This document shows, piece by piece, positions 22,001 through 40,128 of a stretch of 41,401 bases of DNA. The translations under genes were made by a program, and so were the position numbers. The number at the start of each line of letters is the position of its first letter. Within the stretch, counting starts at the first letter, position 1. A model generated the notes under the pieces. The model made no database searches. It was not told the DNA's origin and saw only the letters and a list, made by a program, of their open reading frames with translations. This DNA comes from Blastopirellula marina (GTDB taxonomy: Bacteria > Planctomycetota > Planctomycetia > Pirellulales > Thermoguttaceae): the NCBI GenBank assembly GCA_020721965.1, contig DYLS01000019.1:1-41401 (forward strand), given 5' to 3'.

Positions 22001-23030
22001 GAACCAAAGCTGGATCAAGCTTGTGGATGGCGACGGTGACGATACCTTCACTGGGTCGCCGACGGGAGCCAATCTGCGTGGTCCGGGCTACGACATCGCC
22101 GTGTTGGGCGTGGCCTATGTGCACGCGTATGCCCGGGGAGGCGGCAACGACGCAGCGGTCCTGAACGGCTCCGATGGCGACGACCGTTTGATCATCGATG
22201 ACCGGTTCGCCAAGCTGTTTGGCGATGGCTACTTCCTCCGCGCCAAATACTTCGAGACCGTGACGGTCGATACTCTGGGTGGAGCCGACACCGCGAAGGT
22301 ATGGGATACGCCGGGCGACGACACCTTCACCGGCGGCCCGAATGGCTTCACGTTGCGAACGCGGAAGCAAGCCTTCCAGGGAGCTGGCTTGGAGACCATC
22401 CAGGCTCTGTCCACCTACGGCGGCCAGGATGCCGCTTATCTGTACGATTCGGCGGGTGACGACCTGTTCACCGGTACGCCCACGCGAGCGACCCTGAGCG
22501 GGGCTGGATTCCTCCTGCGGGCTTCGGCCTTCGACTATGTGTATGCGTACTCGACCGGCGGCCGGGATGTTGCACAATTGACAGGCTCGACCGGGGACGA
22601 TATGTACACGGGTGACGCCGTTTACGGTAAACTCGCCGGTCCCGGTTTCTTCCTGCGGACCAAGAACTTTGCCGAGGTATCGGTGGCCTCAGGTGGAGGG
22701 GCGGATATCGGGCGGTTGACCGGTTCGGCAGGCGATGACTCGGCGTTTGCCGATGGTGTGGACTTCGTGCTCCAGAACCTGAACTTCGTGCGGAGCCTCA
22801 ATGGCTTCCGCAGCGTGCAGGTGAAGGGAACGGGTGGCAACGATACCGCGGAGGTGTGGAACGGTACCATCCAGCACGAACTCCTTCCCATGGATGGAGG
22901 CAACCCGCCGGTAGATCCCAACGCGGTCACCGCGATGTTCCAGCAGTTCAACCGGGTGAGCGTTCGCAATAGTGAACCGACGGGCGATCAGGAACTGGAG
23001 AACGTTGACAATATTACTTTCCTGTGGTAG
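13038..23030 (+). CDS. Giant secreted multidomain surface protein (LEPR-XLL signal, Ig-like and C-terminal repeats)
   Basis: 3,330 residues. The start is ATG 13038 with GAGGAG 9 nt upstream. The basic N-terminus leads into LEPLEHRRLLS (39-49), the LEPR-XLL-type export signal known from planctomycete giant proteins. Then: residues ~50-1180, beta-rich repeats with many acidic turns; ~1185-1315, a domain resembling bacterial pre-peptidase C-terminal (PPC) domains; ~1450-2300, at least seven Ig-like domains ending in AGN-containing strands, alternating two types; ~2450-2750, a segment with Ca-binding-like turns (GDFDGDGFDD, ADMDQDGYDD) resembling FG-GAP/VCBS repeats; 2799-3264, ten ~47-residue repeats. 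No catalytic motif or membrane anchor is visible. It probably acts as an adhesin or cell-surface structural protein; that is inference. It is monocistronic, with a strong terminator after it. Confidence 0.88.
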   Translation: MRLSSIFGRRWRLATQFGPSRRSIFTGRSQRRTRGLALEPLEHRRLLSVVSISADDLGGNGSNNTLADEFRLVRNGGNLEVFIDGNLSQSLSLATLDGVSIAGSSDTDTVVIDLSGGLFTLVSGILFDGEQLGPNTTPNDTLVLTGDPGTTVGRVGYFSGPNLGDGSDDGLVLIDPGDSAGAGVSGVLNGDELSVRFFNLQPVIDTVPATQLDIFATNASETISVVNGPIYGGDQTATVSAATFESYSFANKKNVTVNALDGSDTFVLNYSVQVPSLELLDLYGNELTNGLLESDDALGETFQILATGPGTIANRMFGQNGADVYTNSATKLLDALQSDVQMYGQAGNSIIDLSDVNDASGDVITIEGNKIVGAAPAAIEVFFATIEDVRFEATSGDDQITILSTFAPFQYRISGGPGSDAFNVGSYDADPSPAVSLAWAPYGTGVNTIGQIKGALTIVPGPASDSGTDTLYVDDSGGLAGYGGAMINDAAGGAVLTRTTTLLGFDAAADIKYEYTPGGSELENLFIHTSQAADNLVVNTTSAQNTEINLGAGDDFVVIAGDYLSGANVFKGGDDADTIWLNTLNDLGHWSVLPLSQIEIEGNNPAGTLAGGDVVSVRELGAGVPRSLGFDYSGTGDVVLTGLALPVDIRTAEVVEYLGGSANDDSLSVTGTVADDLITVAPLSGDGARVFLGGDPWDGPAADGDFFDQYPGVAGGGAGPDLHLSGAADLYVDAAGGTANRLYFYAPSEADFADGPSVVVPGLGTGNAYDQISVTDSAVSVWNNSVGGLLPISFNSAALVQANPTDRGLVVNAGFEASPDVGGLADDIDVTPSSLFAIMVNGGNPVPTFAPNGDRLQFSAFGDLDIWADKGGTVSLAYSGGGTFPVDFSSIEDLSLFVGGTVNLYGDNNDPGVDQNDLFEIVGTGYQSFSLSVNGSPTIELSGVTDLHIFGDDALGTPSTGSNDVDTLNVTPFADNSPTGWGINISFDEGNPVDGTGAVPDPIIYNGLPGISENIELVPTGPGDGQLRVTNAADGLLITVINYTSNTGFIINGNDGSAGDTDALVISGTDGADDFIVQNADTVDVTGIFSVDFSNFSVVTLRGRAGLDSFTVNPDNPEIIIDGGVPEGSLQSNGDRLTVVTGGASFSIILGPEGDQGTVTVTGEQPISFDHLETLEIDGVVYTLPDLQEPNDSLDGASVLGSLPHLTIQDLTIHTTQVGTTNADYFQITARDTGVMVVNVLFERDGVAGNLTLGELGLEVLDGAGNVVATGTATSLGVQVAFPVVSQERYYLRVFSTDKDPNTYTLEVENFAAPMPTAVSLHPAFDTGRDGVDGITNADNPTLLIQAWLADFAAKGIPVLTAAQAAAGTPGVAVEVFINGVSAGFADPFGPSNNVFSFAMPAGLLAAGVPGGYTGYPNAHGWMNFVSAAVRVFDPQVAQATDARELGVPAVVTYDPNTPDITVASLSLNPASDSGIAGDGITKVSAPTFGGVAEANAIVRLYANGQLVGQAVAGADLSDGVAGNGLGAWSITSQSLVDGAYTFAITEEDVAGNVTNIAQSPTVALTIDATPPQIPTIDLQDTDDTGRSDLDNVTIGDPTQTPGVVDVRISAEPGSTVWVKDGETVIAAFLFDNTFDLTDGLADGFGILTIDFNANQLAYNIPAQGPHPLTVESIDVAGNARQSEQLLVTVDFTAPAPPTINLAPYSDSGTPGDGVTNVSAPAFYGFAEANAIVRLYVDNGSGPVLAGWTYAHSDESDGNPTDGLGLWEITSEPLTDEEYTIWAEAEDLSGNISGESDLIGLEIDATPPQIPTIDLQDADDTGWHDKDNVTIGDPTQTPGVVDVRISAEPGSTVYIKDGNTIVDTFVFDGAFDLTDGLADGFGIRTVDFNANQLAFNIPAQGPHPLTVESTDVAGNARQSEQLLVTVDYTAPLTPSSPDLLPSSDSGAFDNDNVTRINAPAFQGVGEANTLVRIWAEDAAGQIRLVGQGTVGSDESDGDPANGLGVWEVTVEPLDDGVYDITAELEDQAGNISQWSEALTIEIDTYVPNTAYLDLTTGDDTGRSNIDNTTLDNTPIFTVGTSDPNEAIHLLANNLRYRIYDRTEGSGDVLIYDSGTLLNVNSVNTGPLGPLADGVHNLKLEVEDRAGNISDDFLLTVVVDTAAPPASFGEPGPADDGLHPDSDTGLVSIPATLTDRITSDTTPTLWGRTEADAIVRLYADVNGNGAIDAGEPFLGQTTAVPLDGNNAEPNGYWEITSAVDLNDPALFFAQDGLRRLLIQATDPAGNNSAVQQLDIWIDTQGPQVENVFITAAPAFNLFNPKPSDGPTPPVDQLSIRVKDLPNRATGWLYEALAGNLDPGHFSLVGDANGTIPIQSVAFVSDPVVDGSPASGTIVLGFAQPLPDDRFTLTVSDELRDPAGNRLDGESNAEEPQDPPLFPTGDGLPGGSFVARFTVDSRPEVGVWAAGSVWVDTNGNSVFDPDNLDHTNRDIIYALGFTSDDVFAGNFALSAGDTADGFDKLAAYGRVDGDFRWLVDTDNDGVPNINLVEPAVVNGLPFAGRFDDKDVNGDEVGAVTAFPSAGEPSYWYFDTNHDFQVDYTLTSQLRGYPVVGDFDGDGFDDMATWMDDTFQIDLANGVRRGWDGVADATFRFGFIGTQERPVAADMDQDGYDDLGLWVPNRSGQTPGEAGEWYFLVSGGQTLLNRIVVDPIQGWNMIEFTPKPFGNDIYQQFGDEFALPVVGNFDPPVVPQFGETGVTLKGTGNDDVLEIVAGDTAANWTIRLNGEAQVLDGALTTLTVNLGGGADRVVFTGTAGDDVLESEPGTFVFSGTGYAITVLEAETLTANMGAGNDSALLHDGVGDETVTVWPGLVAVQGDGYQVAVEAGEDVRVIADRGGSDVALLYDSTGDDVAEIAAGSLVLRGQAFRSEAEGFEFAHAIARSGGSDVAHFVGSAGVDEFVARPDYSTMLSGGLFRRAKGFASVDIAAPAGNQSWIKLVDGDGDDTFTGSPTGANLRGPGYDIAVLGVAYVHAYARGGGNDAAVLNGSDGDDRLIIDDRFAKLFGDGYFLRAKYFETVTVDTLGGADTAKVWDTPGDDTFTGGPNGFTLRTRKQAFQGAGLETIQALSTYGGQDAAYLYDSAGDDLFTGTPTRATLSGAGFLLRASAFDYVYAYSTGGRDVAQLTGSTGDDMYTGDAVYGKLAGPGFFLRTKNFAEVSVASGGGADIGRLTGSAGDDSAFADGVDFVLQNLNFVRSLNGFRSVQVKGTGGNDTAEVWNGTIQHELLPMDGGNPPVDPNAVTAMFQQFNRVSVRNSEPTGDQELENVDNITFLW
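17739..19163 (+). repeat. Long direct repeat: duplicated pair of Ig-like domains inside the giant gene
   Basis: Two units, 17739-18446 (236 codons) and 18447-19163 (239 codons), each hold a type B Ig-like domain (starting QIPTIDLQD.DDTG) followed by a type A domain (..SDSG...GEANxxVRxx). The type B halves are nearly identical at DNA level: a stretch of over 40 bp around GTGGTGGATGTCCGCATCTC and one of over 60 bp around GCCCGGCAATCCGAGCAGC match almost perfectly 708 bp apart, while the type A halves have diverged. This points to recent duplication or gene conversion of the B domain. Confidence 0.85.
21432..22829 (+). repeat. Ten tandem ~47-codon repeats at the C-terminus of the giant protein
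   Basis: Residues 2799-3264 divide into ten units of 46-47 residues. The consensus is roughly GGxDxAxLxxSxGDD, a short variable strand, then LxGxGFxxRAxxFxxVxAxS. DNA identity between units is low, so they are old. The GDD/GND turns recall, but do not match, the nonapeptide repeats of RTX proteins. An eleventh partial unit starts at TGGNDTAEVWNG. The repeat is expected to build an elongated beta-structure. Confidence 0.8.
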
Positions 23031-28791: not shown

Positions 28792-30588
28792 TTAGGAAGA
28801 CCTCAACGGACAACTAGGGCTGGGCTCTGGCTTGAGAGGTTGCGGTTCAAAGTCATCTGGATTGACCCAGCCGGCCTTCAACGACTCGCCTCGCATAAAC
28901 CGTTCATAGAAGCCGCGGTTCGCCTCGTCGGCATACGGGTAACGATCGAAGACGTCGCCTTGTCCGCAGATGCGAGGATCGCCTTGTGTTTGTAGCTCCT
29001 CGGTCATGATTGCTGCGAGGCGGCGTCTCGTATCGTCGAATTCGGCTTGCGTGGCCAGGTTGTGGAGACATTGCGGGTCGGCTCGCAAGTCGTAAAGTTC
29101 CTCGGCTGGACGCAAGCCGAAACACAGTTGCCAGAAGGAACGATTCTCGCCGGATCGGTACAGTTGAAGAATCTGTGATTTGGTTGGGCTGCCGTCGCAG
29201 TTCAGATAACCGGTTTCGGGATTACCGGCCGGCCAGCGATTCGGTTCAAAATTCCGCAAGTAGAGCCAACCATCCGCGACGATTCCGCGAATCGGATACC
29301 CCCAGTCGTGCGGACGACCAACATCGTGACGTTCTTTGCCGAGGAGCACGTGATCCCGGGACGGATCGACCTTGCCACCGTGATGGGCCTGAAGAATGGG
29401 TACAAGGCTCTTTCCCGCCGCCGGAAGCATGCCCGACTCATCCCAATGTATTCCCGCGAGTTCCAAAAACGTCGGGGCGAGATCGGCGAAGCTGACGAAA
29501 TCCTCGATCACTCGGCCGGGAGCGGCAATGCCTTTCTTCCACATCATCGCGAGTGGTAGATGGGCGGATGCCTCGTAGCATTGCCCCTTTTCGCGGGGGA
29601 ACGGCGCGCCGTTGTCGGCGGTGACGATGACGAGTGTGTTGCCTAGCATCCCTTTCGCTTCGAGCAAGTCCAGCATGCGGGTGAGATGGCGGTCGAAATG
29701 TTCGATCTCGAAAACATAATCCAAGAGGTCCGTCCGTACTGTTTCGTTGTCGGGCCAGTAGCCTGGCACAGACGTGATCTCATCGATGGATTTTCCGCCC
29801 TTGGAAATGCCGGAGCTGAATTCGTAATCGCGGTGCGACTCCCAAGAGCCATACCAAAAGCACCAGGGTTGTCCTTCCGGGACGGCGGCCAGGAAATCGG
29901 CGAAATTAGCCGCGTAATCGATTTTCGAGATGCCGCGCGTGGGCGGCGGCGCCTTACGGGCATCGAAGGCTCGGCCAGTCACGGCCCGCGGCGATCCGTT
30001 TGCCTGACGCGCAACGCCCGGCGCCCAGCCCTTTCCCGTCTTGCCGACGAAGTACCCATGCTCCGCAAGCGTCTCCGGATAAACCTTGAACTTGCTAGGG
30101 AAATACGCGACATGGTTGCAGGCGTCCTCCAGTTGCCAGGAGTTGCGGCCCGTAAGGATGATAGCACGGCTAGGAGCGCACTTGGGATTGGGCGTGTAGG
30201 CATTTCGGAAAAGCAACCCTTCGCCGGCCACACGATCGAAGCCGGGGGTACGAACCCAGGTGCACCCGTAGGCCCCCATGTGTGGGAAAGATGCATCGTC
30301 CGCGATGCAGAGCAGGATGTTGGGGCGATCCGGCAATGCGGCTTCCTTCGCAGCCGCGACGCATGTAAGCTGGGGGGCTAAAAAGCAGAAAGCTAGGCCA
30401 AACGCGAAAGCAATTGGCGATATCGCTCGCCAAAAGTCTCGGGAAAGAAAGACGGCCTGGCTGAGCGATCGAATGTGATTGAACGATCGATCTCGGTTAA
30501 ACGATAGAGCGAGGTTGAACCAGCGCGTGCGGCTGCCGAGGCCCAATCGCCGCCGTGATGTCCGAACCGTGTAGCGGGCCTTCAACAT
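28792..30588 (-). CDS. Secreted sulfatase, type I (formylglycine-dependent)
   Basis: 598 residues from ATG 30588 (GGGAGG 7 nt upstream; the open frame continues to a TTG at 30609). Alkaline-phosphatase-superfamily sulfatase that hydrolyses sulfate esters or sulfamates, probably on sulfated polysaccharides. [12 protein letters not shown] supplies metal-binding Asp residues, [12 protein letters not shown] is the CxPSR motif whose Cys becomes formylglycine, GKTGKGW follows, and [14 protein letters not shown] carries the second metal-binding Asp-Asn. Layout and spacing resemble the heparan N-sulfatase-like subfamily (weak inference). A hydrophobic segment (about residues 56-80) is preceded by an unusually long, basic N-terminus with a coding microrepeat. 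The next gene upstream is the iron-type alcohol dehydrogenase. Confidence 0.9.
30466..30519 (-). repeat. 18-bp tandem repeat coding the sulfatase N-terminal extension
   Basis: Three 18-bp units on the minus strand, each starting TTCAA or TTTAA and ending CTATCG or GATCG, encode [12 protein letters not shown] and FNHIRS; a fourth degenerate unit follows (LSQAVF). They lie ahead of the hydrophobic export segment. Confidence 0.65.
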
Positions 30589-30665
30589 GCTCACGCCTCC
30601 CTTCGCCAAAAATACACGTCATTCGCCAGGTGCGGGACGTAAATCGTCATTCAACCTATTCACGT

Positions 30666-31853
30666 TCACGCAAGAATCTGCTCAAACAGTCCCCGCAGGA
30701 CTGCTTCATTGACAGGTGCCGGAGTTAGTTTCACCGCCTCCGGTGTTGCACGCAGGGCATGTTGCACCAGACGGTCCAGGTAGTTTGGCGGTGACTCCGG
30801 AGGGGGAGTGATTTTTTCTGGGAGTTCCGCTTGTCGTAGGACTTGAGAAATCTTATCGATGAGAGCTGCAATCGCCTTGTCGTCGTGGAACTCCGCGATC
30901 CGACAGCCACAGGCCAACTCTTTTAGGACATCCTGCGCGGTTTCCGCCATGAAACGGATGGCGGCCGGTCCCGCGATAGCGACACTCTGGCCGTGGGGAA
31001 TGCCAAAAACAGCGCCCAGGGCATGGGCCAGGGCATGGCCGACGGTTAACCCCGTGAGATCGTAGGCTGCTCCGGACATGGTTGCCGCCAAGGCCAATTG
31101 AGCCTTGGCTACCGCATCCCCTGCGTCGTCCAAGGCCCGGGGTAGGTGGTCGAGGATCATCCGAACGGCGTGTCCGGCCAGGATCGCAGAGATAGGATTC
31201 GCCATTCGACTGAGGCAGCTTTCGACGGCCTGGATCAAGGCGTCGGCAGCGCAGGCGGCAAGGATTTCGGGCGGACTTTCTGCGAGGAGGTCGGGATCGA
31301 TCACGGCGATCCGGGGGTGCAATCCATCACCCACCATGGCCGCCTTCGTCGCAAATTCCCAACCGGTAACTTCCGGCGGATAGTTGAACACCGCAACGGA
31401 AGTGACTTCGCTGCCGGTCCCGGCCGTGGTGGGAACCGCGATGACGGGGGCCGATTCCGTGATCCGCCGATGCGATTCGTTGGCGTTCGTGAACTCCCAA
31501 GGCGTGCCGGATAGTTTTGCGAGCGCCCCGATCCCTTTGGCCACGTCCAGCACGCTTCCCCCACCTACCGCCACAATCAAGTCGGCTCGCACACGGCGAT
31601 AAACGTCGGCTCCAGCGATCACGAGCGACTGATCAGGCTCGGCGTCGACTTCGAAATACGTCTCTACATGGACCCTTGCCGCGCGTAGGGCGTGCTGCGC
31701 TTTGCGATAGATCGCCTCCATGCCGGAGGCATCCTTGTAGCCCACCAACAATGCCGTCCAACCAAAGTCTTGAGCCAGCTCTCCCAGTTTTCGAATTCCC
31801 CCCCGACCGAACCGCACCAAGGTTGGCAGCCGAAAAGTCCAGTTGTGTAACAT
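30666..31853 (-). CDS. Iron-type alcohol dehydrogenase with one altered metal ligand
   Basis: 395 residues, group III alcohol dehydrogenase fold. NAD(P)-binding GGGS at 97-100, PTTAGTGSEVT at 141-151, and the helical metal-binding half with ADALIQAVES (201-211), GHALAHALG (272-280) and GIPHGQ (284-289). Compared with the Asp-His-His-His set of E. coli FucO, Asp204, His273 and His287 are present but the second ligand is Gln208. The enzyme may bind metal weakly or use another ion, or oxidise a different class of alcohol. ATG 31853 has GGAGA 8-9 nt upstream. It lies 156 nt after the UroD-type gene, at the 3' side of the methyl-transfer cluster, and could belong to it or stand alone. Confidence 0.88.
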   Translation of the reverse strand: MLHNWTFRLPTLVRFGRGGIRKLGELAQDFGWTALLVGYKDASGMEAIYRKAQHALRAARVHVETYFEVDAEPDQSLVIAGADVYRRVRADLIVAVGGGSVLDVAKGIGALAKLSGTPWEFTNANESHRRITESAPVIAVPTTAGTGSEVTSVAVFNYPPEVTGWEFATKAAMVGDGLHPRIAVIDPDLLAESPPEILAACAADALIQAVESCLSRMANPISAILAGHAVRMILDHLPRALDDAGDAVAKAQLALAATMSGAAYDLTGLTVGHALAHALGAVFGIPHGQSVAIAGPAAIRFMAETAQDVLKELACGCRIAEFHDDKAIAALIDKISQVLRQAELPEKITPPPESPPNYLDRLVQHALRATPEAVKLTPAPVNEAVLRGLFEQILA

Positions 31854-32009: not shown

Positions 32010-33056
32010 CTATTTGCGATCTTCGAGAGCCGTAGCCGACGGATCGGGCGGATGCGATCGGGCATACTCCGTGAGGGCGAGCAAATTGGCATGGGGCGTG
32101 CCACGCGGGACCTCGCACCCTGTCCCAACGATGTAGCGCGGCCTGGCCTCGGCATGGCAGCGGCGGATCGCCTGGGTCACGTCCTCCGGATTGCCGTTGC
32201 GGAGGCATTTGACCGGGTCGATGTTGCCTAGCAAGACTTGTGCCGGTCCCATTTTTTCGCGGCCCGCCGCCAGTGGGACCATGAAGTCGAGGTCCACGAT
32301 CTCACAACCCAGGCTACCCATGCCAGACAAGATTCGATTGGTATTGCCGCATATATGCAGGCGAATTCGCCCTCCTATTTCATGAATGGCATCGACCATG
32401 CGTTTTTCATAAGGAAGGACGAATTGATCGTAAATCTTGGGACCAACGAGGGATGCAGCGGCGTCTCCCACGCCGATGATGTCCACGCCGGCTTCGATCT
32501 GCGCCTTTGCGAAAGCCAGCTCCATCTCCAAGACGAATTCGAACAAGTCGCGGATGAATTGGGGATCGTCGAAGAAATCGGTCATCAAAGCATTGATGCC
32601 GCGAAGGTCGGCGGCTTCGGCACAAGGCCCCTCGATCCAGCCCTCGATCAGCAGCTCTCCGCCAACTCGCTTGCGAAAAAGCTCGGCGGCACGGACTCGA
32701 TCTTTCATGCGGCCTCCCCCCAGGGGGTTCGGCACACGAAGGCGGGACAGCGTCGTCTTGTCCGAAAGCAGGGCCTTGTCTTCCACAATCGCCGGCGGCT
32801 GATCCTCGAAATACTGGATCACGGCGCCACAATCGGCAGCTTCACGGGCAGGGTCGGAGATGCAGGAGACATAGTCGAATCCAAAGATTTCCGCTGTCTT
32901 GAGCTGAGCATCCACCAGCACCCGGTGGTCGGTTGCATAATCGGCGTAAGGAACGCCCAGGATGTCGGCGGCAAACATCATGGTGATGGGCATCAACGGC
33001 AGATGATCGCAATTCCCCGTCGCGATCATCTCCAGCACGCGTTGGTAGCTGTTCAT
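32010..33056 (-). CDS. UroD-family corrinoid methyltransferase (MtaA/CmuA-like), canonical metal site
   Basis: 348 residues from ATG 33056 (GGGAAGG 6 nt upstream; the longer frame to 33167 has no such site). The fold is that of uroporphyrinogen decarboxylase, but the family motifs are those of cobamide methyltransferases: LHICGN with His234 and Cys236, and GTGCEVPRGTP with Cys314, the zinc triad that activates thiol acceptors in MtaA/MtbA. True UroD lacks these, and no haem genes are nearby. Likely role: methyl transfer between a corrinoid protein and a donor or thiol acceptor that the sequence does not reveal. It is the last gene of the cluster that includes the corrinoid protein; a 256-nt gap separates it from DUF1638. 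Confidence 0.85.
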   Translation of the reverse strand: MNSYQRVLEMIATGNCDHLPLMPITMMFAADILGVPYADYATDHRVLVDAQLKTAEIFGFDYVSCISDPAREAADCGAVIQYFEDQPPAIVEDKALLSDKTTLSRLRVPNPLGGGRMKDRVRAAELFRKRVGGELLIEGWIEGPCAEAADLRGINALMTDFFDDPQFIRDLFEFVLEMELAFAKAQIEAGVDIIGVGDAAASLVGPKIYDQFVLPYEKRMVDAIHEIGGRIRLHICGNTNRILSGMGSLGCEIVDLDFMVPLAAGREKMGPAQVLLGNIDPVKCLRNGNPEDVTQAIRRCHAEARPRYIVGTGCEVPRGTPHANLLALTEYARSHPPDPSATALEDRK

Positions 33057-33312
33057 GGTTGGCCTTCCCGGTGGCCTTGCTCGGCCCTTGCGACAACCCC
33101 TTGTCCCCCGTTGCACGACAGCGTACTTGACCACGAATTGCGCAATACTTCGCTTATCGCAAGCCATGATAGCCTTGCGTGCCCAACGGAATCAAGCAGG
33201 CGGCGACTCAAGAGCCGAGGATGGGAATTGACATCAACGTGGGGAGATGGTGGGCACGATTCCAAGACGCGGGGCATCCAACGCAGCGCAAGTGGAAAAC
33301 CTCGCTTTTACG

Positions 33313-34086
33313 CTATCCATTTTCTTCTGGCCCTGTGCGGGCTGGGGAGGGAACCGCTCGAATCACGTCCGCATCGAAGGAGGCGGCAATCTGGTGGCCG
33401 GGCGGAACGATCAGGAATTCCGCCGGGTCCCATTTGCCGTTGACCAGATTTCGCAGAAGCCGCATGTTACCGGCCAGGGATTCGAATCGCCACTTTCGTT
33501 GTGCCGCGCGTTCCCGTGTAAGCCTTTCCAACTGGTCGTCCCGCGCCGTCCCTGTGCGGATGTAGGCCATCTTGCCATAATTCCTGGCAAGATCGCCCAA
33601 TTGCGCGCGAAGGTACTGAGCGTTCTCTTCGCCGTATTTTCGGACCCAATCCTCATAAGTCTCCAGCAGACCCAGTTTGCGGACGATGGAATCGGGACCG
33701 TGCTGGGAAAGATCTTCGCCCCGTTCGATCCATCCCGGTGTTTGAAAGTACACCCCCGGATTGTCGTAAAAGTAATCCAAATAGCGCTGCTTGTCACCGA
33801 GAAAGATCGTGATGCAGTCGTGGGCCCGGGGGACGACCAGGGGAATACTTCGTGCCGCTAGGCCGACCAAACCATTGTTGCAAAGCCCATAGGCCAGCGT
33901 GACGGCATCGTAGCGCGATTCCTGGACGGATGCCAATGCCTCGCGAATCCGCGCCGACATCACCACAGGGCCGACATCGTGCAAGCCTTTGGGGAGAAAG
34001 GCGACATCCACGATATGGGACGCATCGGCAATGGCTCCGCAGACCTCTCGGTAAAATATCTCGCAGGCAATCAACTGGATTCGCAC
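33313..34086 (-). CDS. DUF1638 protein, function unknown, in a methyl-transfer cluster
   Basis: 257 residues. It matches the uncharacterised DUF1638 family: LIACEIFYREVC at the N-terminus, TLAYGLCNNGL in the middle, and PRAHDCITIFLGDKQRY after it. Conserved Cys8, Cys16, Cys69 and Cys91 (approximate numbers) with His90 could bind a metal or cofactor; this is inference. GTG 34086 has GGGGAGGGG about 9 nt upstream. It lies between the two UroD-type methyltransferase genes, 47 nt after the first, so it is almost certainly cotranscribed and part of the corrinoid pathway. Possible roles include corrinoid activation, a methyl acceptor or an assembly factor; none is established. No signal peptide or membrane segment. 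Confidence 0.8.
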   Translation of the reverse strand: MRIQLIACEIFYREVCGAIADASHIVDVAFLPKGLHDVGPVVMSARIREALASVQESRYDAVTLAYGLCNNGLVGLAARSIPLVVPRAHDCITIFLGDKQRYLDYFYDNPGVYFQTPGWIERGEDLSQHGPDSIVRKLGLLETYEDWVRKYGEENAQYLRAQLGDLARNYGKMAYIRTGTARDDQLERLTRERAAQRKWRFESLAGNMRLLRNLVNGKWDPAEFLIVPPGHQIAASFDADVIRAVPSPARTGPEENG

Positions 34087-34133
34087 GCTTCCGGCCCCTC
34101 CCCATTTCCTCAGCTATTATCGAGCGGCTGAGG

Positions 34134-35369
34134 CTATTCCCGGCTGGAATTCGCTGGGAGGCCAATTGGATACTTTCCGACCTGTAAAGCAGTTTGGAAC
34201 ATGGCCACAATGTTTTCTGGCGGGCAATTGGCCTGGATATTGTGTACCGAAGCGAAGACGTATCCTCCGTCGGGGGCCAGTGCCGCGATGTGGGCCTGTA
34301 CTTCGGCGGCGACTTGTTCTGGCGTACCGAAGGGCAAGGTTCTTTGACAGTCGCATGAGCCACCCCAGAACGTCAATTGATGCCCAAACTGTTCCTTGAT
34401 CCGGCGGGGATCCATGCCGCGTGCCGTGGTCTGGATGGGGTTGAGGATATCTACCCCCATTTCAATCAGCATCGGGATGAAGTCGAAAATGGCGCCGTCA
34501 TTGTGCATGAACACCTTGAACGGTGTGTGTTGATGAATCCAATCCAGACCTTGCTTGTAAAAAGGGAAGATAAGGCGGCGAAACATGCGCGGTGAGAGAA
34601 ATGGCGCGTCTTGCGTTCCGAGATCGTCGTTGAATTGCACGATGTGTACGAATTCACCAACTGCCGCCGTGAAACGTCGGAGATTCTCGATCCAAGCCTC
34701 TACCAGGCGTTGGTACAAGGCCTCCACGTACTCTGGCTCTTGGGCCAAGGTCATCATCCAGGCCGAAAAGTCGCCCGTCCCCAAGCCGAAGAAAAGCTCG
34801 TACGGTGGTCCCATGGGGGCGATGATGGCGAAGTCGGTGTTTTGATAAATGGCTTCTGCCGCAGCCCTTAGATCGTCCAATTCTTGCTGTGAAAAGAGCG
34901 GCAAGTCCAGGGTTTCGGGGTCGGCGTGGGCTGCTCCAGGGTACGTGTCCAACCGGTCGAAATAGAATCCGTCCTTTGGCATTCGGGCCATCGGGCGGCC
35001 ATTCGAATGGTACAGCGTTAGGCTGCCGTCTTCCTCTTCAACGGGCTGGAAGCCACCGGGCACATCAACGGGCGTCCCGTCGAACAGCTTCCACGGTTTC
35101 CAACCTTCATTAGGGATGCCGAACGCAACAGCCTTGCGATTCAAGCCGATGACATCCACCCCGAATCGCTCGAGGATCGGCCGTTCGACTTCGGCCAGCA
35201 TCTGATATAAGTCGTAAACCTGGGTCGGCGTGGCGATCCCCAGGTGCTGTTTGAGGCGATAGTATGCCGAAGCGGCGATGCCCGACTGCCTCGTCCCGCC
35301 CAAATCAATGGGGACCCGATCAGGCTCCTCGTGGTTCAAAGCTCGCAGGACGCGTTCGCGGGAGAGCAT
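34134..35369 (-). CDS. UroD-family methyltransferase with altered metal site
   Basis: 411 residues from ATG 35369; the frame extends to 35465 but that would overlap the previous gene. The start of the product (MLSRERVLRALNHEEPDRVP) is typical of UroD-family methyltransferases. In place of the HxC motif there is FMHNDGAI, giving His289 and Asp291; a late Cys382 (NCPPENI) matches the third ligand of MtaA-type enzymes, and GGSCDC adds Cys339 and Cys341. The metal site therefore differs from that of its neighbour, which suggests a different methyl donor or acceptor. Acidic and aromatic pocket residues (NDDLGTQDAPFLSP) are well kept. It lies 41 nt after the homocysteine methyltransferase gene and 47 nt before DUF1638. 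Confidence 0.85.
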   Translation of the reverse strand: MLSRERVLRALNHEEPDRVPIDLGGTRQSGIAASAYYRLKQHLGIATPTQVYDLYQMLAEVERPILERFGVDVIGLNRKAVAFGIPNEGWKPWKLFDGTPVDVPGGFQPVEEEDGSLTLYHSNGRPMARMPKDGFYFDRLDTYPGAAHADPETLDLPLFSQQELDDLRAAAEAIYQNTDFAIIAPMGPPYELFFGLGTGDFSAWMMTLAQEPEYVEALYQRLVEAWIENLRRFTAAVGEFVHIVQFNDDLGTQDAPFLSPRMFRRLIFPFYKQGLDWIHQHTPFKVFMHNDGAIFDFIPMLIEMGVDILNPIQTTARGMDPRRIKEQFGHQLTFWGGSCDCQRTLPFGTPEQVAAEVQAHIAALAPDGGYVFASVHNIQANCPPENIVAMFQTALQVGKYPIGLPANSSRE

Positions 35370-35410
35370 GTGTCGACAATCGTCACGCAAGAGGGCAATA
35401 TGGCTTGCGA

Positions 35411-36286
35411 CTATCGGCCCAACCGCTCGCGAATGGCCGCGATAAAAGCGGGCGAGGTCCCGCAACAGCCGCCGATGAAGGCGACTCCCGCCTCCACGAA
35501 CTGCGGGATGTACGAGACAAACTCTTGCGGTGTCATGGCGTAGACGGCCTTTCCGTCGACGATTTGCGGCAAGCCGGCGTTGGGTTTGATCCAGACCGGT
35601 CGATCCGTAGCGGCTCGGAGTCGGCGAGCGATCGTGATATACCCCTCGATTCCCTGGCCGCAGTTGGCGCCAATGACATCCGCTCCAGCGTCGGAGAGCG
35701 CTTCGGCAGCTTGTTCTGGGGTGGTGCCCATCATGGTGCGGTCGCGGTTCTTTCCGGAGTCGAACGACATGCAGGCAACGGTGATCAAGCCTGCGGACTT
35801 GGCTCCGCGAATCGCAAGCATCGCCTCGCCGAGGTCCGACATCGTTTCGATGACCACGGCGTCCGCCCCGGCCTGGGCCAGTGCCCGCGCTTGTTCGGCG
35901 AAAGTCGCCTCCAGTTCATCCGGGTTCTTTTCGCCCGTCATCAAAAGGACGCCGGTTGGGCCGATGGAAGCGAAGACTTTCGCTCGATCTTGTGCCGCTC
36001 GCCGCGAGATGGCAACGCCGGCCTGGTTGATTTCGACAGCCCGGTCCGCTAGCCCTTGTCTGGCCAGGGTGATGCGATTGGCGCCGAACGTGTTGGTAAG
36101 AATGACTTGGCTACCGGCTTCGACGTATTCGCGTGCCACGGCCTCCACGGCTTCCGGGTGCGATAGATTCCATTCGTCGGGGCACACGCCGATAGGAAGC
36201 CCGCGCACTTGCAGTTGGGTCGCCCACGCACCGTCTGTGATGACAGGCGTTTGCCGCAAAAGTTGCTCTAAAAGAGAGACGGACAT
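35411..36286 (-). CDS. Homocysteine S-methyltransferase module (MetH N-terminal-type)
   Basis: 291 residues, a stand-alone barrel of the Pfam S-methyl_trans family. It activates homocysteine as zinc thiolate and accepts a methyl group to form methionine. The zinc ligands are Cys209 in GANCGQG and Cys274-Cys275 in GGCCGTSP. TDGAWATQLQ (residues 17-26) and NTFGANR (65-71) are family motifs. By length and motifs it matches the homocysteine module of cobalamin methionine synthase rather than a full MetH. ATG 36286 has GGAAAGG 7-8 nt upstream. Neighbours supply the folate and cobalamin modules as separate genes, so the donor is probably the methyl-corrinoid protein encoded at 39478-40128. Confidence 0.9.
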   Translation of the reverse strand: MSVSLLEQLLRQTPVITDGAWATQLQVRGLPIGVCPDEWNLSHPEAVEAVAREYVEAGSQVILTNTFGANRITLARQGLADRAVEINQAGVAISRRAAQDRAKVFASIGPTGVLLMTGEKNPDELEATFAEQARALAQAGADAVVIETMSDLGEAMLAIRGAKSAGLITVACMSFDSGKNRDRTMMGTTPEQAAEALSDAGADVIGANCGQGIEGYITIARRLRAATDRPVWIKPNAGLPQIVDGKAVYAMTPQEFVSYIPQFVEAGVAFIGGCCGTSPAFIAAIRERLGR

Positions 36287-36364
36287 AAACGATCGCCTTT
36301 CCAGAAACAGGACACGGTCGCCCGCTTTGGTCCGTGTCGCCTAGCCTGCGTCAACACGCGTTGC

Positions 36365-37237
36365 TTAGCCCGCGTAAAAATGACGTACTTGCATGAGAGC
36401 GTCGAAGCCATCGGCTTGGAGCACGGCTCGCAAGCATTGCATGGCGGGATGGTCGTCGGGCAGCAATTGGTAATTCCTTTTGACCGAACCGATGATCATG
36501 TCCAGCCCCAGGGGCATGGCGATCGTCAAAAACGCGCTCTCCAGGGCACTTTTCACAGGCGTACCGTCTTTACGTTTTGAGGGTAGCATGACCGTGAAGT
36601 TGCTCAAACCGACCGACATGTGTACCCCAGCGAGGTCGGGGTCGTTGTAGATTTTTTCTATGGCGGCAAGGAGGCGATTCAGGTTGCCCTCGGTATCGCC
36701 CGCGATCGGCGCTATCCCCGGATCAATGATCAGGTCGTCGTTCGGTATGCCGGGGTAATGGGTTCGTGCCGCCTTTACCAGGTCTTTCGCGGCTTGGTAG
36801 GTTTGGTCCGCTGTTCGGGCCGGGACGAGCTTGCCCGCTTCCAGCAACTCCGTGGCCAGAAGGATCGGTTTGAATCGCCGAACAGCGTATAGTTCCCACA
36901 TTTCTTCTCGCGCCGGCGTAATCGAATTGAGGACAGGGGCCTTGCCCGCCGCGCGGTCGGGTTGAAATGCGGAAAGACCTGCCCGAGCGATCGCCGGATC
37001 AGGCGTGTCAATGGACAGTGCCTTCGTGGTCACTCCCTGAACTTGTACAACGAGATCGGCCATGAACTCGGGTGATCTGGCACCCACGTTGACATCGATG
37101 TAGGTCGCCCCGCCTGCGTCCTGCATTCGGGCGAGTTCGAGGATGCCGGGAATGTCCCCCGCCTCGAACATGGCCTTGGTGGATGGTACGGAATCGTTGA
37201 TCGACTCCCCAATCATGGTCAGGCCTTGGATGGCCAT
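36365..37237 (-). CDS. Methyltetrahydrofolate:corrinoid methyltransferase (MeTr/AcsE-like)
   Basis: 290 residues, a pterin-binding TIM barrel. It moves the methyl group between methyl-tetrahydrofolate and the cobalt of a corrinoid protein. Residues matching the folate site of clostridial MeTr are present: IGESIN at 9-14, DVNVG (Asp48, Asn50), SIDT (Asp77), NSI (Asn104), IDPGIAPI (Asp172) and GLSNFT (Asn213). Dihydropteroate synthase is unlikely because the Met/Ser pattern and the genomic context are those of MeTr. ATG 37237 has GGGAGGG 7 nt upstream. It stands between methylenetetrahydrofolate reductase and homocysteine methyltransferase, exactly where a dispersed methionine synthase would need it. 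Confidence 0.9.
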   Translation of the reverse strand: MAIQGLTMIGESINDSVPSTKAMFEAGDIPGILELARMQDAGGATYIDVNVGARSPEFMADLVVQVQGVTTKALSIDTPDPAIARAGLSAFQPDRAAGKAPVLNSITPAREEMWELYAVRRFKPILLATELLEAGKLVPARTADQTYQAAKDLVKAARTHYPGIPNDDLIIDPGIAPIAGDTEGNLNRLLAAIEKIYNDPDLAGVHMSVGLSNFTVMLPSKRKDGTPVKSALESAFLTIAMPLGLDMIIGSVKRNYQLLPDDHPAMQCLRAVLQADGFDALMQVRHFYAG

Positions 37238-37447
37238 GCGACGTCCCTCCCGGAATCAGGCTCAACAATCGATACGTAAGTCCCTGTCCCGATGCCTTTC
37301 AAACAAGTTCGCAGTATATGGATATTTGTTTTACCGCCCTCTTTCAAGAATTGCGAGCAAGCCCTCGACGCGGGTGCGATACCTCGATCTTGGAACCAAC
37401 TTCGTGATGCTGCCGCTTGGTCATACCGTGGGGAGAGACATGCCGGC

Positions 37448-39109
37448 TCAGGCATGGTCGCCTTCGTGCTCCGTATCTTTTGGGGCGTGATGGTCCCGGT
37501 CCAAGAAAGTGTTTGCCCAGGACGATGTGTGCTGGAGATCCGCATTGTAGATAACCGGGGGACCCTCCAAGAATCGGTCCGTTTCGCCAAAGGCCTTCAA
37601 GCGTTGATAGACCTTGGCCCACAGGCATTCTTTGTCTTGCAATTCGCATTGGCCGTCCGAGGAACCACCGCATGGCCCATTGCGACTGCATTTGGAGCAC
37701 CAACGCTTGGGGCAAAGGTAAGCACAGTCCGGTAGGCTGCAATCCCCGCAGTCCTGGCATCCATACATGGCAAACTTGACATATCGCTCGGCGGTGTAGG
37801 CAGCTTTGGCGGGCAACGATGACGGCCGTTTGTCCCATCGCCTGTATATTCGCCGCAGTAGTCCCCAAAGTCCCCGGTCGCGGGTGAACGCCCAGCGATG
37901 GACGAAACGAGAGATTCGATAGCCGATGGTTGCGGCTTTGTTGCGACGAGGTCGTTCGAGTGATTTCAGGTATTCCCGATTGATGCGGTCGGGGGCACTC
38001 AGCCCCGTTTCTGGATCGTGTTCGAAGAAGAAGAACTCATGGGGCAACGAGAAACGGATTTCGGGAAGGAATTGCCGCCAGTCATCGGGACCAAAAGATT
38101 CGGCCAGTTCGATTACCCGGAAGAACGCCTCGGGGGAATTCATGCCTCCGAGATAGCCGCCAGCGAACCCAAGCCCCTTAAATACGGCCAATTGCTTGGC
38201 TGCCAACTCGCGAAAGAATGGAGCGCCGCGGTCTGGGCCGCCACCATACTTCTCGCAAATCGCCAACAGTTCATCGCTGACGACGCAACCCGGCAGCCTA
38301 CCATCATGAAAAATCTTGGCGATACCTCTTGTCAGAACGTAGGCATTGCCGATCACCGGCACGTTATGGATACCACGGGCGTGCAGGAAAAGCTTGACCT
38401 CGTGGAATTTGCGCATGTCGTAGCCCAACTGAGTGATTACCCATCGGGCGCCAGCGGCAATCTTGCGGATCAACTTGAAGTATTGGGGGACGAGTTCGTG
38501 CTCATGCCGCTTGAATGGAGACACGGCACAGCCGACGTAAAACGACGCGGGGGCCAGCCGATCCTTGCCTCCTTTGCCGTTCGAGATTTCCAGGCCACGA
38601 TTCATGGCCGTCAACAGGCTGATCAAGCCAACGGAATCCAGGTCGAAGACGCCGCTGGGCCGTCCGCCGAAACCGGTCACAGGGTAGTCGCCGGTCAAGG
38701 CCAACACATTCCATAACCCCTGGGCCGCCAGACGCCAGGCATAAGATTCCAGCCCACTGCGGTTCATATCCTTGCAGGTGAGGTGAATAACGACCTTTTT
38801 CTGCACGTTCGGTATGTCACGCAACAAGTCAGCCAGGGCGTCGGGCGGGAGCATGGGAGAACCGCCCGGATTGTCTGTGATCGAGATCCACGCGATACGA
38901 GGATCCAGGGCCAATTCTCGGGCCAATACCACGGGTGGCAGCTTTTCCGGGTCTGTTGGCAGCCCTCGCGTTGAGACGATCTCTGCCCCGTAGATGAACG
39001 TTCCACCTTCGACCCTTCGCCGGAAAGTGTCCCGTTCCGGGGATGATGAGCCGCCGCCAGGCCGCGACGGCCCAGCCTCATGGAATTCGGACGGCGAACC
39101 GGAGTTCAT
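37448..39109 (-). CDS. metF: Methylenetetrahydrofolate reductase fused to MetV-type cysteine-rich C-terminus
   Basis: 553 residues from ATG 39109. The first ~35 residues are polar linker; ~35-385 is the FAD-dependent MetF barrel (GAEIVSTRG, SITDNPGG, HLTCKDMNR, LALTGDYP). Residues ~440-510 form a separate segment with ten Cys in 45 residues (451, 454, 457, 462, 466, 471, 474, 480, 488, 495), matching the MTHFR C-terminal domain called MetV in acetogens, where MetV is usually a separate zinc or iron-sulfur protein. It interconverts methylene- and methyl-tetrahydrofolate; the electron donor may be a partner docking at the Cys segment rather than NADH. The longer start GTG 39154 abuts AAGGAGG with no spacing, so it is less likely. 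Confidence 0.88.
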   Translation of the reverse strand: MNSGSPSEFHEAGPSRPGGGSSSPERDTFRRRVEGGTFIYGAEIVSTRGLPTDPEKLPPVVLARELALDPRIAWISITDNPGGSPMLPPDALADLLRDIPNVQKKVVIHLTCKDMNRSGLESYAWRLAAQGLWNVLALTGDYPVTGFGGRPSGVFDLDSVGLISLLTAMNRGLEISNGKGGKDRLAPASFYVGCAVSPFKRHEHELVPQYFKLIRKIAAGARWVITQLGYDMRKFHEVKLFLHARGIHNVPVIGNAYVLTRGIAKIFHDGRLPGCVVSDELLAICEKYGGGPDRGAPFFRELAAKQLAVFKGLGFAGGYLGGMNSPEAFFRVIELAESFGPDDWRQFLPEIRFSLPHEFFFFEHDPETGLSAPDRINREYLKSLERPRRNKAATIGYRISRFVHRWAFTRDRGLWGLLRRIYRRWDKRPSSLPAKAAYTAERYVKFAMYGCQDCGDCSLPDCAYLCPKRWCSKCSRNGPCGGSSDGQCELQDKECLWAKVYQRLKAFGETDRFLEGPPVIYNADLQHTSSWANTFLDRDHHAPKDTEHEGDHA

Positions 39110-39216
39110 GTTTCCATGTCCCGCAAATGCTGCCCGAAAGGAACGGCTTTTCACCTCCTTGCGAGTACAGCCCGGGCCATATTTAGTACCACAGCGCAGC
39201 GTCCGCGTTCAGTACC

Positions 39217-39322
39217 ACAGCACAACGTCCGGCTGACTTCATGATGTGCCCAGCTTACGTTGCGAGAAGATATGTCCCCACACCGCAAGATTGTGCCATC
39301 ACGGCATAAGGTTGTACCAGGC
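39217..39322 (-). repeat. Dispersed intergenic element, copy 3 (inverted), with duplicated end
   Basis: Reading the plus strand from ACAGCACAACGTCCGG at 39217, the sequence aligns without gaps to the reverse complement of copy 2 for about 67 bp (about 47 matches by hand), including TTGCGAG and ATGTCCC-type landmarks; the rest is more diverged, so the right boundary is approximate. Its outer end is duplicated in tandem: AGTACCACAGC plus CGTCCG occurs at 39185-39205 and again at 39211-39231, 26 bp apart. It occupies most of the 323-nt gap between the corrinoid-protein gene and metF, and no gene is seen in that gap. Confidence 0.6.
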
Positions 39323-39477
39323 AAACAACCCTGCGGTGTAGTATTAGCAGGTGGCGCTCTCGCTCCGCGACGGTTTTGAAGCGGGAGGAGGATGACGGAG
39401 TGAGTCAGACGCTGCTCGGGGTATCATCGGGCCAGCCCCTCACGCCGATGATGACCGCGTTTTCTCGATTGCGAGTG

Positions 39478-40128
39478 TTAGGCTGTGGTTGCGAATTCGG
39501 ATACCAGCCTGCGTGCGAGGGCCACTGCCTCAGTCGCGTTTTCGCTGTAGCCGTCCGCGCCGATCTGTTCTGCGAATTGCGGGGTAAGCGGCGCACCGCC
39601 CACCATGACCCGAACCTTGTCCCGAAGCCCTGCCGATTGTAAGCGATCGACGACCGCCTTCATGTTGACCATGGTGGTGGTCAAAAGCGCCGACATGGCG
39701 ACGATGGTCCCCTCCTTTTCTCGAGCCGTGTCGACAAACTTATCGGGAGGTACATCCACGCCCAGGTCGATGACCTCGAATCCAGCACCTTCCAACATCG
39801 AGGCGACCAAATTCTTGCCGATGTCGTGCAGATCGCCCTTCACGGTACCGATAACCACGCGGCCCACCCGCTGTACGCCACCCGCTGCCAAGAGCGGTGT
39901 GAGCAGTTCCAGCGAGGCCTTCATGGCGCGTGCGGCGATCAGGAGTTCGGGGACGAAGTACTCGTTGCAGGCAAAGCGGTTGCCCACCTCGTTCATCGCC
40001 GGAATCATGTACTTGGCAATCAGTTCCGAAGGATCGGTGTTGGCTTCCAAGGCCGATTTTGTGACCTCCGCCGCAAGCCGATGGTCCCCATTGACGATTG
40101 CATCGTAGAGCTGCGAGTAGTCGGACAT
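39478..40128 (-). CDS. Corrinoid (methyl-carrier) protein
   Basis: 216 residues from ATG 40128 (GGAGG 5 nt upstream). Two parts: a four-helix cap (about residues 1-85) and a Rossmann-like cobalamin domain (88-216). The base-off/His-on motif is GDLHDIGKN with axial His101, followed by SALLTTT (146-152) and VGGAPLT (176-182). It carries the methyl group on cobalt between methyltransferases, as in MtaC, MtvC or the cobalamin module of MetH. It is the first gene of the leftward methyl-transfer cluster and the only corrinoid carrier in it. Nothing like a RamA/RACo reactivating protein is in the window, so reductive reactivation must be supplied elsewhere or by an unknown partner. Confidence 0.93.
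   Translation of the reverse strand: MSDYSQLYDAIVNGDHRLAAEVTKSALEANTDPSELIAKYMIPAMNEVGNRFACNEYFVPELLIAARAMKASLELLTPLLAAGGVQRVGRVVIGTVKGDLHDIGKNLVASMLEGAGFEVIDLGVDVPPDKFVDTAREKEGTIVAMSALLTTTMVNMKAVVDRLQSAGLRDKVRVMVGGAPLTPQFAEQIGADGYSENATEAVALARRLVSEFATTA

Follow-up and report, generated by a model that had tools for sequence, protein, structure and literature searches.

What does a bacterium do with the homocysteine, folate and cobalamin parts of a methionine synthase when they are encoded as separate genes, in a single run with two UroD-fold proteins and a DUF1638 protein? The question is raised by a 41,401-nucleotide stretch of DNA (the window) from the planctomycete Blastopirellula marina, assigned to the family Thermoguttaceae. 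The evidence below makes it moderately probable that the cluster is a modular corrinoid methyl-transfer hub built around one carrier, working beside an ordinary MetH in the window's genome.

Organization of the gene run

All seven open reading frames are present at the positions given in Table 1, co-directional on the minus strand, and each of the seven proteins scores above the Pfam cut-off in a profile search of the window proteins. Frames, strands and gaps agree with the preliminary description, which reported seven separate leftward genes spaced by 41–323 nt. The intergenic gaps are 323, 210, 78, 41, 47 and 256 nt with the starts chosen, on which they depend (UroD2 from 35369 and UroD1 from 33056, the UroD1 frame being open from 33167). 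The alcohol dehydrogenase gene at the downstream end follows UroD1 likewise in the same-genus genome G088, assembled as one contig, and in Thermogutta (L070), and possibly shares a transcription unit with the cluster. No Rfam family, and hence no riboswitch, was found at gathering score anywhere in the window, and the numbers of promoter-like sites (three, shuffle mean 4.1) and terminator-like sites (13, shuffle mean 11.5) are close to those of shuffled sequence, so that these sites do not mark the ends of an operon. The sulfatase gene farther downstream was considered as a pointer to methylated sulfated sugars, but this idea was dropped in view of the loci at which a relative lies near UroD1 (L070 and, with lower identity, L086, L124 and L138).

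Table 1. Features of the gene run and its downstream flank
Feature	Position	Strand	Profile match or remark
Corrinoid carrier	39478..40128	-	PF02310 B12-binding 8.5e-31; PF02607 B12-binding_2 2.8e-23
MetF fused to MetV-like, Cys-rich DUF5981 tail (MetF-MetV)	37448..39154	-	PF02219 MTHFR 7.9e-14; PF12225 DUF5981 9e-22
MeTr-type methyl-tetrahydrofolate:corrinoid methyltransferase (MeTr)	36365..37237	-	PF00809 Pterin_bind 1.1e-14
Homocysteine S-methyltransferase, zinc type (HMT)	35411..36286	-	PF02574 S-methyl_trans 9.3e-67
UroD2, UroD-fold protein, read as substrate-side methyltransferase	34134..35369	-	PF01208 URO-D 3.9e-27
DUF1638 protein	33313..34086	-	PF07796 2.5e-34
UroD1, MtaA/MtbA-like methyltransferase	32010..33056	-	PF01208 URO-D 5.6e-56
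Iron-containing alcohol dehydrogenase (FeADH)	30666..31853	-	PF00465/PF25137; downstream end of run
Sulfatase	28792..30609		Downstream of run

Carrier, folate and homocysteine enzymes

The best PDB match of the carrier is 1y80 (E 1.2e-62), followed by a trimethylamine methyltransferase corrinoid protein, and the histidine of DLHDIG within its GDLHDIG motif does not vary across an alignment of 14 sequences that contains the window's own. MeTr matches PDB entries 4o0q and 2e7f, the latter itself a MeTr, and scores 107 bits against NCBIfam PRK07535, under the cut-off of 259. The best PDB match of HMT is a 5-methyltetrahydrofolate S-homocysteine methyltransferase (1q7m, E 8.2e-51); residues C209, C274 and C275, which we take to be its zinc ligands, are the same in all 17 sequences aligned, the window's among them. 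Of the 42 family genomes with both MetF-MetV and the carrier, 25 have the two genes within 12 kb of each other.

The two UroD-fold proteins

The predicted His-Cys-Cys zinc triad of UroD1 (H234, C236 and C314) is kept in the sequences of all 80 relatives (80/80). The closest solved structure is methylcobalamin:coenzyme M methyltransferase (PDB 4ay7, E 1e-21), and the score against TIGR01463 is 170.8 bits, under the cut-off of 235.4. A His-Cys-Cys triad is the rule for the S-/Se-methyltransferase branch of the UroD superfamily (PMC10418091), and since UroD1 retains this MtaA-type triad, with zinc as the predicted metal, its substrate is predicted to be a sulfur or selenium compound.

In UroD2, profile alignment to UroD1 places a predicted metal triad at His289-Asp291-His376, with neither Cys ligand present. 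Its AF2 model (pLDDT 85) aligns in VIA-align with Z 25.2 to a UroD and Z 23.5 to 4ay7, to which it shows 16% identity over 310 aligned residues and a weak profile match. O-demethylases of this fold are marked by substitution of at least one of the two Cys ligands, a pattern that UroD2 shows, and the His-Asp-His triad suggests an oxygen-type substrate. The triad is a weak guide to that substrate, however, since O-demethylases with the UroD fold do not all carry zinc: CdmB is reported without it, as is an enzyme from Moorella (PMC13222342).

The nearest solved structure of UroD1 also favours a placement on the acceptor side, as for methanogen MtaA, with methyl groups passing from methanol (through MtaB) or another donor (through UroD2) to the carrier and on to a small thiol. 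This alternative overlaps with the hub reading and would fix the direction of UroD1. In two relatives, L079 and L145, the gene set also encodes MtaB (PF12176), which speaks for it, but both proteins fall under the methanogen equivalog cut-off, and HMT already supplies a thiol acceptor within the set. Among the ten window proteins that were scanned, PF12176 has no match. We know of no use of coenzyme M in these bacteria, and we regard an acceptor-side UroD1 as possible but doubtful.

DUF1638 and reactivation of B12

The preliminary description had left the reactivation route open; DUF1638 is encoded in the cluster itself and RACo on contig C89, apart from the cluster and as the only RACo match in the window's genome. 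In L079, L101, L110, L126, L145 and L148, RACo is encoded next to UroD1 or DUF1638. Phaeobacter, with its split methionine synthase, depends on DUF1638 and a RamA-like protein to make methionine, and DUF1638 is linked in print to B12 reactivation (PMC5764234), the role assumed for it here by analogy with that published case. Residues C8, H36, C69, H89, D90 and C91 are invariant in 24 aligned DUF1638 sequences (window included). The AF2 model is confident (pLDDT 88); Foldseek found no match to it at E 0.001 or below, and the best VIA-align result is middling (Z 7.7, rmsd 3.8, 145 residues aligned). A kinship with LacI-type, sugar-binding or racemase-type two-domain proteins was set aside in view of these middling scores and the common arrangement.

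Conservation of the neighbourhood

The preliminary description had staked its reading in part on a conserved neighbourhood among relatives, and such a neighbourhood was found within the genus and across phyla. The genome G088 holds MeTr, HMT, UroD2, DUF1638, UroD1 and FeADH in one block, with the carrier and MetF-MetV ∼1.8 Mb away. In G086, of the same genus, MetF-MetV and UroD1 share a contig and DUF1638 lies on another, an arrangement in which, with ∼990 contigs, a change of gene order and an assembly effect look alike. A further genome of the genus (G087) has the carrier, MetF-MetV and MetH; searches there found nothing that matches DUF1638 or RACo, and no close UroD1. Within the family, DUF1638 is present in 48 of 52 genomes with UroD1 compared with 23 of 67 without it. 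Of the 47 family genomes, mostly drafts, that have both the carrier and UroD1, only four place them within 12 kb of each other. In view of this low proximity and of the distant carrier in G088, a single shared carrier is a conjecture.

The order carrier, HMT, (DUF1638), UroD1 recurs in Verrucomicrobia (L092, L114, L118, L122, L134 and L136), an acidobacterium (L128), Planctomycetota (L101) and an unassigned locus (L107), as well as in Planctomycetota L074, where MeTr follows the carrier, and in acidobacterium L079, where MtaB does. Chance does not account for the cluster, since the same genes adjoin in other genomes. The substrate enzyme differs between loci (UroD2 or a UroD2-like protein in the window, L107 and L128, MtaB in L079 and both in L145), as the hub model predicts. 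In the 54 loci where UroD1 is preceded by at least 3 kb of sequence, co-directional partners within 6 kb are DUF1638 in 17, HMT in 16, the carrier in 15, MeTr in one and MetF-MetV in none, and 26 loci lack all seven of the partners that were counted. On a tree of 45 of the 80 loci, chosen for clean frames (leaving out L079, L118, L122, L145 and others), plus the window, the partner-gene rows need four changes compared with a shuffled mean of 6.0, a value reached in 26 of 500 shuffles; loci with partner genes are thus at most weakly clustered.

These counts bear on a methylotrophic catabolic operon, in which UroD2, UroD1 or both would take the methyl group from a methoxy or methylthio compound and MeTr would pass it to folate, with MetF-MetV oxidizing it and HMT as a side exit; it overlaps with the hub reading and differs in the main exit. 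A substrate methyltransferase, carrier, MeTr and MetF fit the logic of three-component demethylases and of MetF2 (PMC12478193), and FeADH and the sulfatase lie downstream. Across phyla, however, UroD1 keeps company with HMT rather than with MeTr or MetF-MetV, and we entertain such an operon only tentatively.

Glycine betaine demethylation as in Ruegeria would use the same components, namely carrier, HMT, MeTr, MetF and DUF1638 (PMC12478193), and proteins of the MttB/MtgB family (PF06253) occur in six of the 22 genomes searched (G001, G007 and G018, plus those of L079, L110 and L128), the six being relatives that carry cluster genes. PF06253 has no match in the window's genome (G000), G086 or G088, which makes betaine a highly improbable substrate for the window's genome.

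Methionine synthase in the same genomes

The preliminary description proposed a search for loss of full-length metH alongside the cluster. The window's genome instead encodes on contig C67 a complete MetH of 1343 aa, activation domain included, so the cluster is not the sole methionine synthase there and metH loss is ruled out as the reason for it. Outside the family search, the activation domain is present in 15 of the 16 genomes whose loci pair UroD1 with partner genes, in 14 of the 16 inside an open frame of more than 1000 aa. Within the family, 36 of the 52 UroD1 genomes and 52 of the 71 DUF1638 genomes lack a strong match to the MetH activation domain (PF02965), so that a place beside MetH is not general, and in those 36 the cluster parts may be the methionine synthase; 84 of the 98 genomes without a strong match have the carrier. 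The term 'dispersed methionine synthase' is accordingly weakened for the window's genome and the 15 others and may hold in those 36 family genomes. Both DUF1638 (19 of 21 strong-MetH genomes versus 52 of 98 others) and UroD1 (16 of 21 versus 36 of 98) are commoner with MetH, in counts drawn from non-independent relatives and many incomplete genomes, for which Fisher values are not evidence by themselves. A carrier and HMT alone do not prove that methionine synthase has been replaced.

An ordinary split methionine synthase of the Phaeobacter kind would have carrier, HMT and MeTr using methyl-folate from MetF-MetV, DUF1638 and RACo reactivating B12 and the UroD genes as passengers. The three MetH parts and DUF1638 in the cluster, RACo in the genome and the family genomes without strong PF02965 are all consistent with it. 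It is nevertheless unlikely, given the complete metH and the ties of UroD1 to DUF1638 in the family and, at some of the cross-phylum loci, to the carrier, HMT or DUF1638, with MeTr so rare among those loci; these ties make UroD1 an unlikely passenger.

Proposed mechanism

The analysis shows a conserved set of genes, proteins that keep their metal-ligand residues, and a genome that encodes metH and RACo; from this we infer reaction directions, substrates, metals and a carrier common to all parts as follows. RACo and DUF1638 would hold the small corrinoid carrier at Co(I), and the UroD-type methyltransferases would exchange methyl groups with it, UroD2 drawing on an O-methyl donor or something comparable and UroD1, through its His-Cys-Cys zinc, on a thiol or selenol, or possibly working in reverse. 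One exit would be through HMT, which converts homocysteine to methionine, and the other through MeTr to methyl-tetrahydrofolate, which MetF-MetV could oxidize to methylene-folate. The preliminary description proposed such a one-carrier hub joining folate, homocysteine and further methyl compounds; it stands as the best reading of the evidence, with the sharing of the carrier, like the substrates, conjectural.

The joint presence of a substrate methyltransferase, a corrinoid protein and an acceptor methyltransferase argues for the hub, and so does the fact that HMT, the carrier and UroD1 have retained residues that bind metal or cobalt. The Ruegeria case, in which one carrier serves betaine demethylation and methionine synthesis (PMC12478193), and the need for DUF1638 and a RamA-like protein in Phaeobacter (PMC5764234) also count in its favour; the near absence of MeTr and MetF-MetV from the cross-phylum sets counts against it. 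For Planctomycetota, Verrucomicrobiota and Acidobacteriota, a folate-independent thiol-to-thiol relay is conceivable, if speculative: UroD1 would load the carrier from a methylated thiol or selenol and HMT would transfer the methyl group to homocysteine, so that methionine is regenerated alongside MetH; DUF1638 would be a Cys/His metalloprotein required for an active carrier. The hub reading offers a concrete, testable function for DUF1638 and for an MtaA-like methyltransferase that has no known substrate.

Comparison with known systems

The cluster appears to belong with the modular corrinoid methyltransferase and split methionine synthase systems, as a UroD-bearing version. With type 1 mlp clusters (PMC10418091) it shares an MtaA-like His-Cys-Cys UroD protein accompanied by a corrinoid protein; some relatives have RACo in common with them as well. 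Those clusters, reported in obligate anaerobes only, have at least two MtaA-like proteins (>25% identity to a characterized SCMT), a corrinoid reductive activase in the cluster and no tetrahydrofolate methylase within 20 kb, whereas here one protein is clearly MtaA-like (UroD2 was compared with 4ay7 only), the sole RACo match is on another contig and MeTr lies inside the cluster. The MtaABC, OdmB/VdmB and CdmBCA systems (PMC13391211, PMC13222342) likewise combine a substrate methyltransferase, a corrinoid protein and an MeTr-like acceptor enzyme, to which this cluster adds HMT, the His-Cys-Cys UroD1 and DUF1638.

The preliminary description suggested that the system may be undescribed, which is right only in part. 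A split synthase with DUF1638 and a RamA-like protein (PMC5764234) and a dual hub for methionine synthesis and glycine betaine, MtgBCDE with a metF paralogue (PMC12478193), are both published; for the UroD-type version no description was found in the open-licence literature listed. As in Phaeobacter inhibens and Ruegeria pomeroyi (PMC5764234, PMC12478193), the homocysteine, pterin-binding and B12-binding proteins are separate, a metF gene and DUF1638 are present and RACo/RamA is encoded elsewhere in the genome. Unlike MtgBCDE, the window's genome has a MetF with a MetV-like tail and a complete metH, the replacement of full-length MetH being a usual but not strict trait (108 of 156 MtgBCD genomes have no metH; PMC12478193). 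It also has no match to an MttB-type MtgB (PF06253), and two UroD-fold enzymes stand where Ruegeria has MtgB. If the hub reading is true, the one-carrier, many-methyl-donors design of Ruegeria betaine metabolism (PMC12478193) extends to phyla with few cultured members.

Gene arrangement and proposed role

All seven genes of the preliminary description lie on the minus strand, each with a match above its Pfam cut-off and with intergenic gaps of 41–323 nt among them; their order is given in the table together with other features. No Rfam family reached the gathering score in the window.

Features of the window, in transcription order for the cluster, and related loci elsewhere in its genome (C, contig; L, locus)
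Feature	Location	Coordinates	Strand
Carrier (small B12-binding corrinoid protein)	window		minus
MetF-MetV (MTHFR, MetF fused to a MetV-like DUF5981 tail)	window	37448–39154	minus
MeTr (methyl-tetrahydrofolate:corrinoid methyltransferase)	window		minus
HMT (homocysteine methyltransferase)	window		minus
UroD2 (UroD fold)	window		minus
DUF1638	window		minus
UroD1 (UroD fold)	window		minus
FeADH (iron-containing alcohol dehydrogenase)	window, after UroD1		minus
Very long open frame, 3560 aa	window	12348–23030	plus
Second stand-alone carrier adjoining another UroD-fold gene	L013, C309	8407–9054 and 9634–10839	minus
UroD-fold paralogue	L016, C358	3533–4819	
UroD-fold paralogue	L015, C49		
UroD-fold paralogue	L014, C227		

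A corrinoid methyl hub, served by one or two UroD-type methyltransferases and present beside MetH in this genome, is the best reading of the cluster. UroD2 would act on the donor side of the carrier and UroD1 on either the donor or the acceptor side, with methyl groups leaving the hub as methionine or as methyl-folate.

UroD1 aligns with the methylcobalamin:coenzyme M methyltransferase structure 4ay7 (E 1e-21), and its residues His234, Cys236 and Cys314 are kept in 80 of 80 relatives (the best 80 of 378). Kountz and Balskus describe His-Cys-Cys as the mark of S-/Se-methyltransferases in the UroD superfamily, one or both cysteines being replaced in the O-methyltransferases (PMC10418091). Such a sulfur-type UroD1 in the neighbourhood of the homocysteine methyltransferase suggests a possible thiol-to-thiol methyl relay. 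UroD2 also has the UroD fold (Z 25.2, r.m.s.d. 3.1, 306 aligned to 1j93; Z 23.5 to 4ay7), and in a profile alignment its His289, Asp291 and His376 stand in place of His-Cys-Cys, which points to a substrate of oxygen type or of another kind. Some UroD2-like relatives have cysteine instead of the aspartate, and zinc is reported to be absent from some UroD-fold methyltransferases (PMC13222342).

HMT resembles the N-terminal domain of MetH and has three invariant cysteines, MeTr resembles methyltetrahydrofolate:corrinoid methyltransferases, and the carrier is matched better by stand-alone corrinoid proteins than by MetH. Methionine is reported to rescue DUF1638-gene mutants of Phaeobacter, in a study that describes a distribution nearly that of a RamA-like protein and gives no specific function (Price et al., 2018, PMC5764234). 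Cys8, His36, Cys69, His89, Asp90 and Cys91 of DUF1638 are invariant in 24 sequences, and the protein may have a metal or Fe–S site; its predicted fold gave no convincing solved structural relative.

MetH and related genes in the same genome

On contig C67 of the 97% complete assembly (380 contigs, 4.95 Mb) there is a full-length metH, a 1343-aa frame with HMT, pterin and activation domains and both B12 domains (TIGR02082 score 1661.5 bits), so that the loss of metH proposed earlier as a check is not borne out in this genome. The corrinoid reductive activase RACo (RamA type) occurs as a single copy on C89. MetF-MetV is the sole match to itself in the genome; many relatives have a second MTHFR-like match with a frame of ∼600–700 aa. 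MetF-MetV may be the assembly's single MTHFR gene, unless another lies in a gap or escaped detection.

The second carrier is 42% identical to that of the window; among the matches listed, more than 25 family genomes likewise have a second carrier at comparable identity. Two of the further paralogues are 39–42% identical to UroD2 and the one on C227 is 23% identical to UroD1; tblastn gave no match to the other cluster proteins in the L014, L015 and L016 stretches.

Conservation in the family

Among 119 family genomes (43 of high quality), a carrier match was found in 110, RACo in 99 and DUF1638 in 71 (29 of the 43). DUF1638 accompanies UroD1 in 48 of the 52 genomes having an orthologue of the latter, within 12 kb in 23 genomes and on different contigs in 25. 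Carrier and MetF-MetV lie within 12 kb in 25 of the 42 genomes having both. MeTr-HMT-UroD2-DUF1638-UroD1-FeADH forms a single block in the one-contig genome G088 of the same genus, and carrier-MeTr-HMT-UroD2-DUF1638-UroD1 are grouped in genomes G004 and G006. The carrier is within 12 kb of UroD1 in only four of the 47 genomes having both. In G088 the carrier and MetF-MetV adjoin each other ∼1.8 Mb from the block. The DUF1638 match is split in two pieces in five family genomes (G094, G097, G113 and G114 of genus g39; G115 of g40), which may reflect errors of assembly, gene decay or an insertion specific to the lineage.

The MetH activation domain PF02965 was detected in 25 of the 119 genomes, strongly (E < 1e-80) in 21. 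Of the 98 genomes without a strong match, 84 have the carrier and 36 have UroD1 (out of 52 UroD1 genomes in all), so in much of the family methionine may be made by the split proteins. This pulls in the opposite direction to the higher frequency of DUF1638 (19/21 versus 52/98) and UroD1 (16/21 versus 36/98) in genomes with a strong MetH.

UroD1 loci across phyla

An alignment scan of a species-genome collection gave 378 stretches with UroD1 relatives, of which the best 80 (63–86% identity) were, by title, 44 Planctomycetota, 24 Verrucomicrobia, four Acidobacteria, two Hydrogenedentota, five unassigned and one other. Among these 80 loci, many of which are short, window queries matched DUF1638 in 28, HMT in 20, carrier in 16, UroD2 in eight and MeTr in three. 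Where at least 3 kb lay upstream (54 loci), one or more co-directional partners were found within 6 kb in 28, and none of the seven partners counted in the other 26. The order carrier-HMT-UroD1, in some loci with DUF1638 intervening, is found in Verrucomicrobia (L092, L114, L118, L122, L134, L136), Acidobacteria (L128), Planctomycetota (L101) and an unassigned contig (L107); in L074 MeTr follows the carrier.

In a tree of 46 UroD1 rows, that of the window groups with a protein on a contig titled Thermogutta sp. (86% identity) at 100/100 support, which points to a Thermoguttaceae planctomycete as host. Partner-gene rows are dispersed (four changes versus a shuffled mean of 6.0), so that the tree fits an old linkage, though transfer may have played a part. 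UroD1 of L091, titled Candidatus Nealsonbacteria, falls among Pirellulales rows; this contig is probably mis-binned.

The methanol:corrinoid methyltransferase family MtaB (PF12176) lies inside the set in L079 (Acidobacteria, after the carrier; E 5.6e-165) and L145 (E 5.9e-160), and a UroD2-like gene is directly upstream of the carrier in L107 and L128. The donor-side enzyme is therefore variable, while carrier, HMT and UroD1 are constant. Methanol is not assured as the MtaB substrate, since the scores (414.6 and 432.6) are below the NCBI methanogen-equivalog cut-off of 720. RACo adjoins UroD1 or DUF1638 in L079, L101, L110, L126, L145 and L148; in L110 and L126, RACo and a farther DUF1638 are oriented opposite to UroD1.

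PF02965 was found in 15 of 16 genomes checked (those of L079, the exception, L092, L101, L107, L110, L114, L118, L122, L124, L126, L128, L134, L136, L143, L145 and L149), in 14 of them within an open frame of more than 1000 aa. Among genomes checked beyond the family search, the UroD1 set is thus usually a second system beside MetH. Ten genomes with UroD1 and no detected partner all match PF02965, one below the cut-off. In G136, G138 and G142 (L097, L103 and L119, no partners near UroD1), the match (E 1e-25 to 1e-28) lies in a frame of only 889–917 aa, which would fit a MetH without its homocysteine module.

Comparison with known systems

No description of a carrier-HMT-DUF1638-UroD set was found among the papers listed in searches of open-licence full texts. 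Other UroD-fold methyltransferases whose substrate is unknown are mentioned in PMC13222342. By the published criteria the window cluster is not an mlp cluster. Methionine synthases of the MetE kind, which do not depend on folate, have been described (PMC7857596); the window HMT is of the MetH kind. For methanol metabolism in Moorella, a scheme of three components is described: a substrate enzyme, a corrinoid protein and a folate methyltransferase (PMC13391211). PF06253, the MttB/MtgB family, had matches in six of 22 genomes searched and none in the window's genome or its congeners G086 and G088. In Ruegeria, one carrier is reported to serve both the demethylation of betaine and the synthesis of methionine, alongside MetF2, DUF1638 and RamA (Mausz et al., 2025, PMC12478193); the window cluster has the same design, except that UroD-fold enzymes take the place of the Ruegeria MtgB.
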